NCBI GenBank assembly: GCA_900319675.1
Contig: ONPK01000002.1
Location: 1 to 41,965 of the forward strand
Source of the DNA: an uncultured Bacillota bacterium
Lineage (GTDB): Bacteria > Bacillota_I > Bacilli_A > Erysipelotrichales > Erysipelotrichaceae
DNA: 41,965 nt
Reading direction: 5' to 3'
Shown here: positions 17,696-34,059 of the stretch, one piece after another
Layout: every line of letters begins with the position of its first letter
How positions within the stretch are numbered: position 1 is the stretch's first letter
Made by a program: the position numbers and the translations under genes
The notes under the pieces: generated by a model
Database searches by the model: none
Seen by the model: the letters and a program-made list of their open reading frames with translations, nothing else
What the model was told of the DNA's origin: nothing

Positions 17696-17803
17696 ATGAT
17701 CTCAGCAGTTTCAGAGGGTTATAATAAGGCCGGATCAGCAGTAATAGGAAAGATAATGAAAGAAATGAGCGGAAGGATGTTTTCATATGGCTTTGCTGGA
17801 TAA
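17696..17803 (+). CDS. Small ORF (35 codons) overlapping the dxs start
   Basis: ATG 17696 follows a strong GGAGGAAGG ribosome site at ideal spacing, better than that of dxs itself. The product would begin MISAVSEGYNKAGSAVIG, be partly amphipathic, and end at TAA 17801-17803, 17 bases inside dxs. It could be a leader peptide that couples translation into dxs, a small functional protein, or the end of a decayed gene. It is not recognised by sequence. A possible extended -10 (TGTTAGAAT) lies near 17632. Confidence 0.4.
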   Translation: MISAVSEGYNKAGSAVIGKIMKEMSGRMFSYGFAG

Positions 17804-19655
17804 GATCAAGGATGCTAACGACATCAAGCAGCTGCCTGAAAGTGATCTTCCGCTTTTAGCAGAGGAAATCAGGCAGAGATTACTGGAAGTAACCAGTACC
17901 AACGGCGGACATCTCGCCAGCAATCTTGGGGTAGTGGAGATCACCATCGCCCTGCACAGACTGCTGGATTTCCCCAGGGATAAACTGATATTTGACGTGG
18001 GACATCAGTCCTATGTACACAAGATGCTCACGGGCAGAAATGAGGCCATGGGTACATTGAGACAGCTGGATGGCATCAGCGGATTTACCGATCCGGGGGA
18101 AAGCGAGGATGATTCCTCCATCTCCGGTCATGCCTCCAATGCGATCTCCATTGCCCTGGGCTATGCCAGCGCCAGAGAGATAAAGGGAACGAACGAAAAG
18201 GTAGTTGCCCTCATCGGTGACGGTTCCCTGACCGGAGGCATGTCAAACGAGGCGCTTAACAACGCTGCCAATCTGAAGGGAAATCTTGTCATAATTCTGA
18301 ATGACAATGAAAGATCAATATCTGCCAATGTCGGCGGCCTGGCTAACTATCTAGGCAAGATAAGAACAAGCAATCGCTATCTTTCAACCAAGACGGTCGT
18401 TCAGAATACTCTGGGCAAGATCCCGGTAGTTGGTGAATACATCAAGACGGGTATTCACGCCACCAAGGAATCTATCAAGAGACTGTTTGTTGAAGGCATG
18501 TTCTTTGAGGATCTTGGCCTCACCTACATCGGACCGATCGACGGCAATGACATTGAGCAGGTTACGGAAGCTCTGGAGAGCGCCTTCCGCTTTAATGAGC
18601 CTGTGATCATTCACGCTCTTACCGTTAAGGGCAAGGGGTATAAGGAAGCTGAAAAGCATCCGGCACAGTACCACGGTGTCGATCCGTTTGATCTGAAAAC
18701 CGGCAAGCCATTGAAGAAGAAAACGGGAAGAAGCTATACGACCTGTTTCTCCGACAAGATGCTGCAGCTGGCAGAAAAGGATGAAAGAATAGTTGCCATT
18801 ACCGCAGCGATGCGCTTTGGCACGGGATTATACAATTTCAACAAGAAGTATCCGGAAAGGTTCTTTGACGTCGGCATTGCCGAGGAGCATGCCGTAGCCT
18901 TTGCGGCCGGTCTGGCCTCAGCCGGTTTACGACCGGTGGTAGCCATATACTCAACGTTCTTACAGAGAGCGTATGACCAGATGATCCATGACGTCTGCAT
19001 GAGCAGACTTCCGGTCATCTTTGCGGTCGACAGGGCAGGATTGGTAGGAAATGACGGCAAGACCCATCAGGGTTTACTGGATGAATCATTCCTCACCAGC
19101 ATCCCGAATATGACGGTAATGAGCCCGAAGAATGAATGGGAACTTGATGAGATGTTTGATCTGGCCTTGGAGTTAGGCAGCCCGGTAGCCATCCGCTATC
19201 CACGCGGTCAGGCAAGCGAGAGTCTGAACGAATACCGTCAGCCGCTTGTACTGAACGAGGATGAAATAATGGAAAGAGGCTCCAGAGTATGCATTCTGGC
19301 AACAGGCGTAATGGTTGAAACCGCCATGAAGGTCAGAGACATGCTTAAGGAGAAGGGAATTGAACCGACGGTAGTCAACGTAAGATTCCTCAGCCATGTA
19401 AATACTGATCTGATCAGGGAGCTTAAAGATGATCATGAACTGTTTGTCACGATGGAAGAAGTCGTGGCTCACGGCTCATACGGACAGAGAATGGACGCTG
19501 CCGTTGCCGCTGAAAAGCTTGGAGTCAGCGTAATGAACGTTACTCTTCCGGACAAATTCATAGAGCATGGAACCATTGAAGAATTAAGAGAACGCTACGG
19601 TCTGACCGCCGATGCAGTCACAGACCGCATCGAGAGGGAACTGGGCGGCTTTTAG
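17787..19655 (+). CDS. dxs: 1-deoxy-D-xylulose-5-phosphate synthase
   Basis: Thiamine-diphosphate enzyme that joins pyruvate and glyceraldehyde 3-phosphate, the first step of the non-mevalonate isoprenoid pathway; it uses a product of the PGK-TIM step. The TPP motif GDGSLTGGMSNEALNNA, NGGHLASNLGVVE, VGHQSYVHK, GIAEEHAVAFAAGLA and RYPRGQ are present. At 622 residues it has the family length. GGAAGGA sits about eleven bases before ATG 17787 and the start overlaps a small ORF. No later MEP-pathway gene is nearby. It is followed by a riboswitch-controlled unit. Confidence 0.97.
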   Translation: MALLDKIKDANDIKQLPESDLPLLAEEIRQRLLEVTSTNGGHLASNLGVVEITIALHRLLDFPRDKLIFDVGHQSYVHKMLTGRNEAMGTLRQLDGISGFTDPGESEDDSSISGHASNAISIALGYASAREIKGTNEKVVALIGDGSLTGGMSNEALNNAANLKGNLVIILNDNERSISANVGGLANYLGKIRTSNRYLSTKTVVQNTLGKIPVVGEYIKTGIHATKESIKRLFVEGMFFEDLGLTYIGPIDGNDIEQVTEALESAFRFNEPVIIHALTVKGKGYKEAEKHPAQYHGVDPFDLKTGKPLKKKTGRSYTTCFSDKMLQLAEKDERIVAITAAMRFGTGLYNFNKKYPERFFDVGIAEEHAVAFAAGLASAGLRPVVAIYSTFLQRAYDQMIHDVCMSRLPVIFAVDRAGLVGNDGKTHQGLLDESFLTSIPNMTVMSPKNEWELDEMFDLALELGSPVAIRYPRGQASESLNEYRQPLVLNEDEIMERGSRVCILATGVMVETAMKVRDMLKEKGIEPTVVNVRFLSHVNTDLIRELKDDHELFVTMEEVVAHGSYGQRMDAAVAAEKLGVSVMNVTLPDKFIEHGTIEELRERYGLTADAVTDRIERELGGF

Positions 19656-19689
19656 TTGAAAACACCGGGTTATTATGATAAATTGAGTT

Positions 19690-19777
19690 TGAATGAGGGA
19701 GTAACAGACGTTGAAAAACGTAGCTAAGTCGTCATCACGGATAATTCCCGGCTCGCTTCAAATTGTGAGACTCATGC
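19690..19777 (+). promoter_or_regulatory. yybP-ykoY (Mn2+) riboswitch aptamer
   Basis: The conserved elements of the manganese-sensing yybP-ykoY aptamer occur in order: P1 strand ATGAG (19693-19697) with GGAGTA loop (19698-19703); a hairpin ACGT...ACGT; the L3 region AAGTCGTCATCACGG (19726-19740); CCCGGCT; and GTGAGACTCAT, whose CTCAT (19771-19775) closes P1. These match the Lactococcus lactis aptamer (GGAGUA, GUCGUCA, CCGGCU, AAGACC) in sequence and spacing. A terminator follows at 19818, so Mn2+ binding is expected to permit transcription into the Na/Pi-PhoU gene. Confidence 0.82.
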
Positions 19778-19817
19778 ATTACTTCTGTTGTGCGTGAGCG
19801 TGTTGAAAAAATACATG

Positions 19818-19845
19818 GGTACGGCAGATGCCGTACCTGTTTTTC
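19818..19845 (+). terminator. Expression-platform terminator of the riboswitch
   Basis: GGTACGGC / GCCGTACC with an AGAT loop and TGTTTTTC, placed 42 bases after the aptamer and 45 before the start codon. Confidence 0.85.
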
Positions 19846-19889
19846 ATAAAAATGAACGTCAGTAGTTAAGGGGACTACAGGAGGATAAC

Positions 19890-21623
19890 ATGGATATTTA
19901 TTCATTCTTGCAGATTCTGGTAGGATTGGCCTTTTTCCTGTTCGGCATGCAGGTCATGTCGTCATCGCTGGAAAAGATGGCCGGCGGTTCTCTGGAAACG
20001 ACAATGAGAAAGGTGACCAGCAATAAGTGGCTCAGCTTCTTATTAGGCATGCTGATCACATGTGCAATTCAGTCGTCTTCAGGTGTAATCGTCATGCTTG
20101 TTGGTCTTGTAAACTCCAACATCATCATGTTTAAGGACACATTACCAATCATTCTCGGTACCAACGTAGGTACTACGATCACCGGCTGGATCCTGACTCT
20201 TACCGGCATTGACAGCAGTAGCTTCTCAATCATGTCAGTACTGAGCCCGAAGTTCTTCACACCAATTCTGGCCTTTGCCGGTGTTGTCATGAGAATGGTA
20301 TCCAAGAAGGAAAAGCAGAAAGACCTTGGAACGATATTCCTGGGTTTCGCAGTATTAATGTACGGCATGACCTTCATGTCAGATTCAGTAAAACTTATGG
20401 CTAATGAGCCTTGGTTCGCCAAGCTTCTGCTTATGTTCACCAACCCGATACTGGCTGTACTGATTTCAGTAATCGTCACTGCGGTTATTCAGTCATCAGA
20501 CGCAACCATCGGTATCATTGAAGCGTTCGCTTCTTCAGGCCAGATCTCATTGGGAATGGCCATACCTCTGGTACTTGGCGCCAATATCGGTACCTGTGTT
20601 ACCGGTCTGATCAGTTCAATCGGTGTTTCCAAGGGAGCCAAGAGAGTCAGCGTGCTGCAGGTAATGGTAAACTGCACCGGTGCATTGATCGTACTGGCTG
20701 TATTACTCGTAATTGGCAACATGGAATTTTTGAAGGGCATGACAAACCATGTCGGAGTAGCCCTGACCCACACGCTGTTCAACGTATTCGTTACGATCGT
20801 TGCCTTCTCAATTGAGCCGATCCTCATCAAGATCGTCAAGAACATCGTCAGGGACGAGGCAGAAGATCTGCCGAAGGTTCTCATCGACGACAGACTGCTC
20901 AACCAGCCGTCAATCGCCGTTACCGAGTGCATGTACAAGACGATTGAAATGGTTCTGATGGCCAGAAGAAACATCCTGTCATCACTGAACCTGATCAAGG
21001 AATTCAATGAGATTGAATATGAGACCATCAAGGAAACTGAACAGATGATCGACTGGTATGAGGATGAACTCGACAGTTTCCTGGTCAAGTTGTCAAAGGT
21101 ATCACTGTCTCAGGCTGACGCTGATACCGTAGGCAAGATGCTGCATGTAATCACCGACTACGAGAGAATCGGTGACCATGCCAACAATCTGGCCGATCTG
21201 GCTAAGAAACTGAATGAAAGCGAAGAAAAGTTCTCTGAAGATGCCATGAAGGAAGTTGACAACATGATCAACGCCATCAACGAGATAGTTGAATTCGCTA
21301 CGGATTGTCTGGTTGACAATGACCTGGCCAGCGGTGCACAGGTTGAACCGCTTGAAGAAGTCATTGACTACATGTCAGATGCCATGATGGATTCTCACGT
21401 TGAAAGACTCGTCAAGGGCAAGTGCTCTGTTTCCCAGGGCTTCCTGCTTTCTGACTTCGTAAATAACTGCGAGAGAGTTTCTGACCACTGTTCCAACATT
21501 GCGGTTGCGGTTATTGAAGCATCAAATGATGAATTCTATACCCACCAGTATCTGCATGACGTGAAACACGAGTCAGAAGATTTCAAGGCACTATACGATT
21601 TCTACTTCCAAAAGTACTGCTAA
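19890..21623 (+). CDS. Na/Pi-cotransporter family protein with C-terminal PhoU domain
   Basis: A 577-residue membrane protein. The N-terminal 320 residues contain two Na/Pi-cotransporter repeats with the diagnostic QSS motifs (AIQSSSGV near 57 and VIQSSDAT near 202) and GTNVGTTITG / GANIGTCVTG. The C-terminal 220 residues are PhoU-like, with metal-binding helices DYERIGDHANNL and NCERVSDHCSNI. Bacterial homologues such as E. coli YjbB are linked to phosphate export. ATG 19890 follows GGAGG. Control by an upstream Mn2+ riboswitch is unusual, since known yybP-ykoY targets are mainly Mn2+ exporters. Confidence 0.93.
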   Translation: MDIYSFLQILVGLAFFLFGMQVMSSSLEKMAGGSLETTMRKVTSNKWLSFLLGMLITCAIQSSSGVIVMLVGLVNSNIIMFKDTLPIILGTNVGTTITGWILTLTGIDSSSFSIMSVLSPKFFTPILAFAGVVMRMVSKKEKQKDLGTIFLGFAVLMYGMTFMSDSVKLMANEPWFAKLLLMFTNPILAVLISVIVTAVIQSSDATIGIIEAFASSGQISLGMAIPLVLGANIGTCVTGLISSIGVSKGAKRVSVLQVMVNCTGALIVLAVLLVIGNMEFLKGMTNHVGVALTHTLFNVFVTIVAFSIEPILIKIVKNIVRDEAEDLPKVLIDDRLLNQPSIAVTECMYKTIEMVLMARRNILSSLNLIKEFNEIEYETIKETEQMIDWYEDELDSFLVKLSKVSLSQADADTVGKMLHVITDYERIGDHANNLADLAKKLNESEEKFSEDAMKEVDNMINAINEIVEFATDCLVDNDLASGAQVEPLEEVIDYMSDAMMDSHVERLVKGKCSVSQGFLLSDFVNNCERVSDHCSNIAVAVIEASNDEFYTHQYLHDVKHESEDFKALYDFYFQKYC

Positions 21624-21696: not shown

Positions 21697-22245
21697 ATGA
21701 AATATGTTCTTATTGCTATTGTTGTATTAGCCGTTCTGGCAGTTCTGTACTTCATTTCAACAAACAATGCATTTGTTGCCTTACAGAATAAGATCGAAGA
21801 GGCATTCTCAACAATGGATGTATATCTGGTTAAAAGAGCTGAGCTGATCCCAAACATCGTCGCAACTGTAAAGGGATATGCAAAGCATGAAACTGAGACT
21901 CTGGAAAAGGTCGTCGCCGCCAGAAATTCAGCCGTTACAGCCGGTGACAAGATCGCTGCTGATACCGAGCTGACAAAGGCAGTCAGACAGGTATTTGCCC
22001 TGGCAGAATCCTATCCTGAATTAAAGGCAAACACCAACTTCCTGAATCTGCAGCAGCAGCTTTCATCAATTGAAGAAGACATCGCAACTTCACGTCGTTA
22101 CTACAATGGTGTCGTAAGACAGTACAACACCAAGTTACAGTCATTCCCAAGCAGCCTGGTTGCTTCAGCCAAGGGCCTTGTAAGACAGCCGATGTTTGAG
22201 GTAAGTGACGATTCACAGCGTCAGAATGTAAAAGTAGAGTTCTAA
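21697..22245 (+). CDS. lemA: LemA family protein
   Basis: A 182-residue membrane-anchored protein: one N-terminal transmembrane helix (about residues 3-21), then the LemA coiled domain with NKIEEAFSTMDVYLVKRAELIPNIV and YPELKANTNFLNLQQQL, all conserved. The molecular role of LemA is not settled. It stands two bases before the DUF2207 gene, a frequent LemA partner, which supports a shared envelope function. AAAGGAGG precedes ATG 21697. Confidence 0.93.
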   Translation: MKYVLIAIVVLAVLAVLYFISTNNAFVALQNKIEEAFSTMDVYLVKRAELIPNIVATVKGYAKHETETLEKVVAARNSAVTAGDKIAADTELTKAVRQVFALAESYPELKANTNFLNLQQQLSSIEEDIATSRRYYNGVVRQYNTKLQSFPSSLVASAKGLVRQPMFEVSDDSQRQNVKVEF

Positions 22246-22247
22246 AA

Positions 22248-24143
22248 ATGCGCAAGCTTCTGAATGTAATTTTGGCCATATTGATTGCCGTAAGCGTCAT
22301 TTCCATCAGGACTGACCGCGTACAGGCAAGAGAAGGCTTTGATATCAACAAGCATGTAGTAGAAATGGATGTTCACGAGGATGGAACCATTCTGGTAACT
22401 GAAACCATGGACGTACTTTTTACTGTGCCAACTTTACATGGCATCTACGTGAATATTCCGAAGGAGTATTCAATGAGATGGGAGATCAACGATCAGACTG
22501 TCAGGAAGAAATATGTCTTCCCTGTGCGCCATGTAAAGGTGCTGTCCGATCATAAGTATGACACTACCGATTTTACTGAAGGTGTTCAGATCAAGATCGG
22601 TGACAAGAACAAGTATGCAAATACAAACGAAACCTACAAGTTCCAATACGAGATCGTGACCAGAGATCTGGATCTTAACGGATTGCAGATGCTGTTCATG
22701 AACATCATCTCCGGAGGCTGGAATACCGTAACTCATTCAGTTGAGTTCCAGATCAACATGCCTAAGGAGTTTGACAGAAGCAAACTGCAGTTTGACTCAC
22801 CGGAAGGCGTTACCAGTGAATCAAAGGGAGCCCTGTCATTTGTCGTTACCGGAAAGACCATTTCCGGTACATACAGCGCAGATCTGAATCCTGGTGAGGC
22901 TATCACCGTTCTGCTGAATCTGCCGAATGACTACTTCCATTTCATCAGTAACAACGTTTACGGTCTGTACGCAATGATCACATCCTGCATCATAGCCGTG
23001 ATTATGGCTACACTGTTCTTCATCTTCGGCAAGGATGACCCGCTCATCGACAGCGTTGAATTCCATGCTCCAAGCGGGGTAACAAGTGCAGAAGTCGGCG
23101 TCATAATCGATGGCGTTGCCAATGACGGGGATGTCATTTCACTGATCCTTGACTGGGGCAGAAGGGGACTCATAACCATTACTGACAAGGAAGACTCACT
23201 GATCCTCACCAAGAAGAGCGATCTGGAAGCTACGGCCAGAGGTTATGAAAGACACATGTTTGACGAACTGTTCAAGAACCGCGATGAAGTCAACATTGAC
23301 ACCCTCAAGGACAAGTTCTATACGACCATCGGCAGAGTCGAGAAGATGCTGGACAAGTACTTCAATTCCAAGAAGCGCAGACTGTTCACTGAGTCATCTC
23401 TGACTGTACAGACAATATGCCTGATGCTGTCATTTTTGCCGATAGGCATTACCTCATTCATGCTGTATTACTGTTACTACTATGACATGGTTCTTGGCCT
23501 GATCTGGGTTGCCATTGATGCAATCACCATCATCGGTGCAACGGCCATCATGGTATACATGGATAACAGAAGATACATGCACAAGTGGTATACAAAGCTG
23601 TTACTGTACATCGCCGTAGGCGTACTGTTCACCATACCGGTCATCATACTGGTATACATCGCAGCTGATACCAATACAAACATCGGATATCCGATCGTCA
23701 GCATAGTGGCCAACATTCTGGTAATACTTGTCGTCAGGTTCATGAAGAAGAGAACCGAATACGGCAATCAGATCCTTGGTCAGGTAATAGGCTTGAGAAA
23801 CTTCATCCTGGTTGCCGAGCAGGACAGACTGCAGGAACTGGTTGATGAAAATCCATATTACTTCTATGACATTCTGCCGTTTGCCTATGCGCTAGGTCTG
23901 ACAGATGTCTGGAATGATCATTTCAAGAATCTGACAATACAGCCATGTGACTGGTATTACAGTCCGTATTACTCTAACCCGTATTACATGACTAACTCAC
24001 TGTCCAGTCAGATGCATGTCATTGAAAGGGCCATGACAAGTGCCCCGGCACCTGAAAGCTCATCAGGAGGATTCAGTTCAGGATCTTCCGGCGGAGGATT
24101 CTCAGGCGGCGGCTTTGGTGGTTCATCAGGAGGTGGATGGTAA
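22248..24143 (+). CDS. DUF2207 domain membrane protein
   Basis: This 631-residue protein has a signal peptide (about residues 1-28, ending RVQA), an extracellular beta-rich DUF2207 domain of about 200 residues, a transmembrane helix near 243-262, a cytoplasmic domain, two to four further helices near 385-500, and a Ser/Gly-rich end (SSGGFSSGSSGGGFSGG...). This layout is standard for the LemA-associated DUF2207 family; function is unknown. The DNA for the Gly-rich tail includes AGGAGGTGG, which serves as ribosome site for the next, tiny gene. Confidence 0.88.
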   Translation: MRKLLNVILAILIAVSVISIRTDRVQAREGFDINKHVVEMDVHEDGTILVTETMDVLFTVPTLHGIYVNIPKEYSMRWEINDQTVRKKYVFPVRHVKVLSDHKYDTTDFTEGVQIKIGDKNKYANTNETYKFQYEIVTRDLDLNGLQMLFMNIISGGWNTVTHSVEFQINMPKEFDRSKLQFDSPEGVTSESKGALSFVVTGKTISGTYSADLNPGEAITVLLNLPNDYFHFISNNVYGLYAMITSCIIAVIMATLFFIFGKDDPLIDSVEFHAPSGVTSAEVGVIIDGVANDGDVISLILDWGRRGLITITDKEDSLILTKKSDLEATARGYERHMFDELFKNRDEVNIDTLKDKFYTTIGRVEKMLDKYFNSKKRRLFTESSLTVQTICLMLSFLPIGITSFMLYYCYYYDMVLGLIWVAIDAITIIGATAIMVYMDNRRYMHKWYTKLLLYIAVGVLFTIPVIILVYIAADTNTNIGYPIVSIVANILVILVVRFMKKRTEYGNQILGQVIGLRNFILVAEQDRLQELVDENPYYFYDILPFAYALGLTDVWNDHFKNLTIQPCDWYYSPYYSNPYYMTNSLSSQMHVIERAMTSAPAPESSSGGFSSGSSGGGFSGGGFGGSSGGGW

Positions 24144-33706: not shown

Positions 33707-34059
33707 GGGGTCGTCTTGGTTTCGACAGGGCGTAGTTGGATTCGGACTGCAGCGGAGTTATTCGCCTAACGGATAAACCTAAAAATAACTGGCAACAGTA
33801 ATTATTCATTCGCTGCTTAATAGCCTGACGTAAGGCTCGCAGCCGTCAGCCATTGTTTAGCTTCTGGGCTATGGACTGGTGTAAAAGACAGAAGATAAGT
33901 ACTGATGATTTCTGATAAATCAGTAACGAAAACCCATCAGGAAAACAGAGACTACATCTTGTTCATCATGAGGTTTCTGTTAATGAGATGAACTAAACTG
34001 TAGAGGTCTGAATGTGGGACACGTTTTGGACAGGGGTTCGATTCCCCTCGGCTCCACCA
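33707..34059 (+). ncRNA. ssrA: Transfer-messenger RNA
   Basis: Rescues stalled ribosomes with SmpB. The 5' end GGGGTCG pairs with CGGCTCC before the 3' ACCA to form the acceptor stem, the tRNA-like 5' part reads TTGGTTTCGACAGGG, and the T arm GGGGTTCGATTCCCC is intact. After the conserved AATAACT the tag frame GGC...TAA (33791-33820) gives (A)GNSNYSFAA, close in form to the Staphylococcus tag (A)GKSNNNFAVAA and ending in the AA needed for ClpXP degradation. Length 353 bases. The reading frame is assigned by analogy. Confidence 0.95.

Follow-up and report, generated by a model that had tools for sequence, protein, structure and literature searches.

A P4-less yybP-ykoY-class leader, probably a manganese-responsive ON switch, upstream of a Na/Pi-cotransporter-PhoU gene

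The locus and the architecture of its leader

In the window (the whole stretch of DNA analysed, 41,965 nucleotides, from a gut bacterium), a leader region lies between dxs (17787-19655) and a gene for a Na/Pi-cotransporter-PhoU protein. The main features of this region are listed below.

19656..19684, + strand: possible promoter (TTGAAA, 17 nt, TG-TAAATT), from a consensus scan only (chance expectation, about 0.6 sites)
19693..19775, + strand: three-way-junction yybP-ykoY-type aptamer (covariance model R1, trained without the window, 50.3 bits, E=1.2e-11; covariation in relatives)
19880..19884, + strand: ribosome-binding site GGAGG, from the sequence
19890..21623, + strand: Na/Pi-cotransporter-PhoU protein, 577 aa (PF02690, 1e-54; PF01895, 1.4e-18; NF037997, 174 bits against a cut-off of 50)

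Profile matches in the open reading frame comprise two Na_Pi_cotrans stretches and likewise two PhoU stretches. Both QSS motifs (residues 61-63 and 201-203) are invariant in an alignment of Na/Pi proteins, and the E-R-x-x-D pattern is retained in both PhoU repeats, where it is invariant or nearly so; the protein thus has two Na_Pi_cotrans repeats with QSS plus a PhoU domain. Genes for LemA and a DUF2207 membrane protein (21697-24143, + strand) lie directly 3' of the Na/Pi gene, with a TATAAT-like stretch in between. Elsewhere in the window there is a tmRNA gene (33707-34059, + strand, 141.6 bits).

The original prediction described GGAGTA, GTCGTCATCAC, CCGGCT and GAGAC in the right order, with a closing P1 stem and a downstream terminator, and all of these elements were found. 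The motifs run in order from 19697 to 19771 (GGGAGTA at 19697-19703, GTCGTCATCAC within 19728-19738, CCCGGCT at about 19747-19753 and GAGAC at 19767-19771), closed by helix P1.1 and followed by an intrinsic terminator at 19815-19840. In full, the order of the leader is AUGAG, GGAGUA, ACAG, a GNRA-type hairpin, AGUC, GUCAUCAC, a short hairpin, GGCU, UUGU, GAGA and CUCAU, which we assigned to the following elements.

19693..19697, + strand: 5' strand (AUGAG) of the switch helix P1.1, pairing with CUCAU at 19771-19775 (covariation, fold)
19698..19703, + strand: L1 loop GGAGUA, together with GAGA at 19767-19770 (GGGAGUA invariant in 79/79 window-type leaders; role from PMC6754395)
19704..19707, + strand: 5' strand (ACAG) of P1.2, pairing with UUGU at 19763-19766
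19708..19721, + strand: P2 hairpin ACGUU-GAAA-AACGU
19727..19730, + strand: 5' strand (AGUC) of P3.1, pairing with GGCU at 19750-19753 (C19730 and G19750 correspond to C44=G66)
19731..19738, + strand: L3 loop GUCAUCAC (A19734 corresponds to A48 of X. oryzae and A41 of L. lactis, and is present in 79/79)
19739..19748, + strand: P3.2 hairpin GGA-UAAU-UCC

The conserved L1 (GGGAGUA with GAGA) is closed by P1.1, and the A-minor contact pair C19730=G19750 occurs together with the invariant A19734 of L3, as in the yybP-ykoY class. Central to the X. oryzae structure are C44=G66, A10 of L1 and the invariant A48, which coordinates Mn2+ through its N7 (PMC6754395); in L. lactis, the metal site is formed by G9, U39, C40, A41, U44 and C45 (PMC9190785). 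Placed by the shared core, U-C-A at 19732-19734 of the window matches U39, C40 and A41 in the structure of the L. lactis RNA with Mn2+ bound. Among 79 window-type leaders, GGGAGUA, the A of L3, CGG and AGAC are all invariant. P1.2 is closed by an A-U pair in the window versus a G-C pair in most mntP-type leaders, a two-sided change that keeps the helix, and P3.1 is one pair (A-U) longer in the near-twin genome G006, where the window has A-C (A19726-C19754).

Compared with members of the RF00080 class such as L. lactis yoaB and the X. oryzae riboswitch, the window leader has the same P1.1, L1 (GGGAGUA/GAGA), C44=G66 equivalent, invariant A in L3, GAGAC, P1.2, P2, P3.1 and P3.2, and its predicted expression platform would, like theirs, be a transcriptional ON platform. 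Unlike them, it lacks P4, is missed by the RF00080 model and precedes a Na/Pi-PhoU gene. No P4 was found between positions 19754 and 19762 of the window, and the lineage models also lack it; the junction is one of three helices rather than the four-way junction of P1-P4. The leader of S. pneumoniae mgtA likewise combines a three-way junction with the yybP-ykoY core, judging from its description in PMC9495176; unlike the window leader, it controls a P-type ATPase according to the same text. On sequence grounds, the assignment of the window leader to the yybP-ykoY structural class as a P4-less three-way-junction member is well supported.

Detection of the leader within the lineage

With cmscan, RF00080 gave no match in the window at its gathering cut-off (45 bits) and none at E<=10. 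We regard this miss as uninformative, because RF00080 exceeds its cut-off in 0/148 genomes of the order. Its weak matches in the order sit upstream of mntP, P-type ATPase and Na/Ca antiporter genes, and a leader preceding a P-type ATPase gene in the same genome as the window receives only 16 bits. RF00080 alone was therefore rejected as a test, the whole lineage being missed. Matches of the leader to rli45, AniS and Mu-gpT-DE (10-15 bits, Rfam) were attributed to chance.

We built a covariance model (R1) from 17 aligned relatives that were given the yybP-ykoY helices, leaving out the window and G006. In an unfiltered scan of the 42-kb window, 19689-19779 was the top place with 50.3 bits and E=1.2e-11, and the runner-up place scored 13.5 bits; the R1 E-values are rough owing to a short calibration, and the gap in score is large. 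In the alignment of the 17 relatives, 94.6% of the cells were paired versus 77.7% after shuffling, 13 of the 20 pairs had changed on both sides, and shifting the partners by 1 to 3 columns lowered pairing to 23-44%. Pairing in the 79 window-type leaders, a set that includes the window and whose alignment was fitted to the model, was 92.3%, with two-sided changes in 15/18 pairs.

Two further models were derived from 12 window-type leaders of the genus (R2) and from the 79 leaders (R3), and both find the window-type subclass widely; R2 matches 182/316 genomes of the order at E<=0.01. RF00080 thus has a blind spot, with 0/148 order genomes over its cut-off, whereas a lineage model detects such leaders in 221/316. 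As for the Mn2+ riboswitch of the yybP-ykoY type that had been proposed, the structural class is borne out by the R1 score and the conserved core, the RF00080 match is absent, and the choice of Mn2+ derives from the core.

Genes downstream of related leaders

Genes classified downstream of the lineage leaders encode Na/Ca antiporters, Na/Pi proteins, flotillin/SPFH proteins, MntP, P-type ATPases, PiT, CitMHS-like proteins, an unnamed membrane protein and an ABC ATPase. Mn2+-export genes (mntP and P-type ATPase genes) are thus among the neighbours, and MntP-like genes as the sole targets were rejected by this survey. The original prediction had set the Na/Pi gene against known targets that were chiefly Mn2+ export systems; such systems do occur behind the leaders of relatives, and the Na/Pi gene is no isolated exception, as several unexpected targets were found. 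Na/Pi genes follow 20 of about 130 classified leaders, plus the leader L295.

A tree was built of 49 Na/Pi proteins; in it L139 is a long branch, and the rows with a switch were collected because they carry it. The switch label needs at least 5 changes on this tree and falls on four branches that lie apart (the window clade, L139, a large clade of genus g35 and L295). Outside the order, a leader was found in a member of Oscillospiraceae (Clostridia) at 1292-1400 of L357 (E=1.5e-6), about 100 bases upstream of a Na/Pi-PhoU gene; its P1.1 is contained in a perfect terminator. Of about 76 Clostridia-type Na/Pi loci tested, a single one has the leader; therefore, the Na/Pi gene carries the switch occasionally rather than as a rule. 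The link between leader and gene recurs on separate branches, and, together with the profile matches of the protein, this bears out the proposal that the Na/Pi-PhoU gene is controlled by a yybP-ykoY-class leader, which we consider well supported.

The genome that contains the window (G000) has further leaders before a P-type ATPase gene and a flotillin gene. Within the genus, the switch precedes the Na/Pi gene in G000 and G006 and the PiT gene in G001, G004 and G007; no switch was detectable at the PiT gene of G006, and several relatives carry the Na/Pi gene without a switch. In G001 and G007 (L010 and L009), the order of dxs and the Na/Pi gene persists and the flanks and terminator are conserved, with the aptamer gone, apparently by a deletion some 200 bases ahead of the latter gene. 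This pattern, drawn from small numbers and incomplete genomes, reads as an exchange of which phosphate transporter is metal-controlled.

Within the family, AACA-type L3 loops go with MntP and ATPase genes and GUCA-type loops with the rest (35:3 versus 2:90, counted over related rows with biased sampling). The split may possibly be one of dose or ligand. A strict rule by which L3 type fixes the target does not hold in general: other families also have GUCA-type leaders in front of P-type ATPase genes.

Less familiar genes were also seen behind these leaders. A membrane protein of about 550-570 aa, whose scanned members match nothing in Pfam or NCBIfam, follows the leader in seven genomes (L206, L153, L180, L191, L201, L211 and L217); it is a candidate metal-response protein. 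In G001 and G007 (L113 and L114), a leader precedes a small protein whose Tubby_C_like/LOR matches are weak and below the curated cut-offs. Another (L280, G037:C1:248681-248778) precedes a 441-aa protein whose start, judged by eye, resembles the CNNM/CorC family.

Predicted switching, ligand and use

Downstream of the aptamer, the following elements were predicted.

19771..19798, + strand: competing hairpin that uses the 3' strand of P1.1 (CUCAUGCA...UGCGUGAG), in the minimum-energy fold
19784..19793, + strand: antiterminator strand UCUGUUGUGC, pairing with GUACGGCAGA at 19819-19828 (10 pairs, by complementarity)
19815..19840, + strand: intrinsic terminator with U tract

The ligand-free minimum-energy fold holds both the competing hairpin and the terminator. 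The antiterminator strand lies inside the competing hairpin, and its target is the 5' arm of the terminator. Consequently, the competing hairpin and P1.1 are mutually exclusive, as are antiterminator and terminator, and two such helix pairs make up the layout of an ON switch. The antiterminator complementarity of the window ranks 2 against 100 shuffles. Among the 68 leaders with a separate terminator, 45 fall in the best 5 of 100 shuffles, where 3-4 are expected; by this simple complementarity test, a clear antiterminator is absent in 6/15 Na/Pi leaders. A further 21 leaders have the 3' strand of P1.1 within the terminator or immediately adjacent to it. In a secondary-structure energy model that ignores tertiary and metal contacts, aptamer plus antiterminator lie about 20 kcal/mol above hairpin plus terminator. 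The ON state being far costlier than the OFF state, switching would have to be kinetic, occurring during transcription with help from metal and tertiary contacts.

In the yybP-ykoY class, Mn2+ turns target genes on. By analogy, abundant metal, most likely Mn2+, would turn on the Na/Pi-PhoU gene at the level of transcription. The metal would join L1 and L3 and stabilise P1.1, withholding CUCAU (19771-19775) from the competing hairpin; the freed strand 19784-19793 could then pair with the terminator's 5' arm, and transcription would continue. In the absence of metal, the terminator would form together with the competing hairpin. Taken together, the sequence features indicate that the leader is probably a P4-less yybP-ykoY variant acting as a transcriptional ON switch for the Na/Pi-PhoU gene, with Mn2+ as the most likely ligand. 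We infer the ligand, the sign of switching and the effect on phosphate, the ligand from the conserved core.

The main rival to Mn2+ is Ca2+. The RNA and its ON logic would be identical, and the physiological signal would be Ca2+ or Ca2+ with Mn2+: window-type leaders would form a subclass that jointly controls Ca antiporters for Ca2+ export, transporters of phosphate, and flotillins as membrane scaffolds, and the actual Mn2+ exporters (MntP and P-type ATPase) would fall to a sister subclass in the same genomes. Calcium/sodium antiporters (TIGR00367) are the largest target class among the sampled window-type leaders, with the leaders of Na/Ca antiporter genes being window-type in 27/27 classified cases, and phosphate and CitMHS-type transporters move Ca-binding anions. 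For the three-way-junction mgtA leader of S. pneumoniae, PMC9495176, citing Martin 2019, reports tighter binding of Ca2+ than of Mn2+, but also stronger activation by Mn2+ in vitro. Moreover, the A whose N7 confers Mn2+ selectivity is invariant, and the L3 of L. lactis, of the same type, belongs to an established Mn2+ sensor (PMC9190785). We consider a Ca2+-sensing subclass unlikely.

A role in moving or sensing the metal for the Na/Pi protein itself, or for its metal-binding PhoU portion, is quite improbable; the target would then be a disguised metal exporter for which phosphate is incidental. The E-R-x-x-D pattern kept in the PhoU repeats and the many cation exporters among the other targets would fit such a role; however, every profile match of the protein is to a phosphate symporter, and PiT, a different phosphate transporter, bears the switch in G001, G004 and G007, a sign that phosphate is what these targets share. 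It is hardly credible that this copy of the leader is decaying or has no function, or that it is just an attenuator of the ordinary kind: the P3.1 pair A19726-C19754 is broken and the aptamer was lost from the G001/G007 leader despite kept flanks and terminator, but the core is intact, the R1 score is high, and G006 keeps all helices despite several substitutions and has an extra A-U pair.

The recurring pairing of the switch with phosphate transporters suggests that, in these bacteria, phosphate handling is coupled to a metal signal. YjbB of E. coli and Salmonella, which annotation and literature place in the same Na/Pi cotransporter family as the window protein, promotes export of Pi (PMC11389368), a likeness to the window protein by family only; no riboswitch has been reported for yjbB in the literature examined. 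PitA imports Mn-phosphate in D. radiodurans (PMC13188870). The likeliest use of the switch would be to shift cell phosphate during metal overload, via Pi export as by YjbB or by adjusting metal-complexing phosphate; altered Pi export or Pi supply would each change the amount of metal complexed. By these data, Pi export, handling of Mn-phosphate and Mn transport by this family, the three roles named in the original prediction, are not distinguished.

In the literature covered by our full-text searches (15 of 17 matches listed), no paper linked yybP-ykoY to the cotransporter, COG1283 or NptA; target tables published in 2015 may already mention such a gene. The class is already known; the window leader is a P4-less form of it that escapes RF00080 and has a target not expected for the class. 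A metal riboswitch that has been studied in depth thus has its regulon extended from metal exporters to phosphate transport (Na/Pi, PiT) and membrane scaffolds, and as it reaches phosphate transport, the metal-phosphate link becomes directly testable.

FloT and FloA are among the interaction partners of the B. subtilis Mn proteins MeeF and MeeY (PMC10550928), a hint, by analogy, that flotillin may be part of Mn physiology. The sample contains 19 flotillin leaders; in G000, a window-type leader (L064:1501-1592, G000:C115:16698-16789) precedes a flotillin-like SPFH gene.
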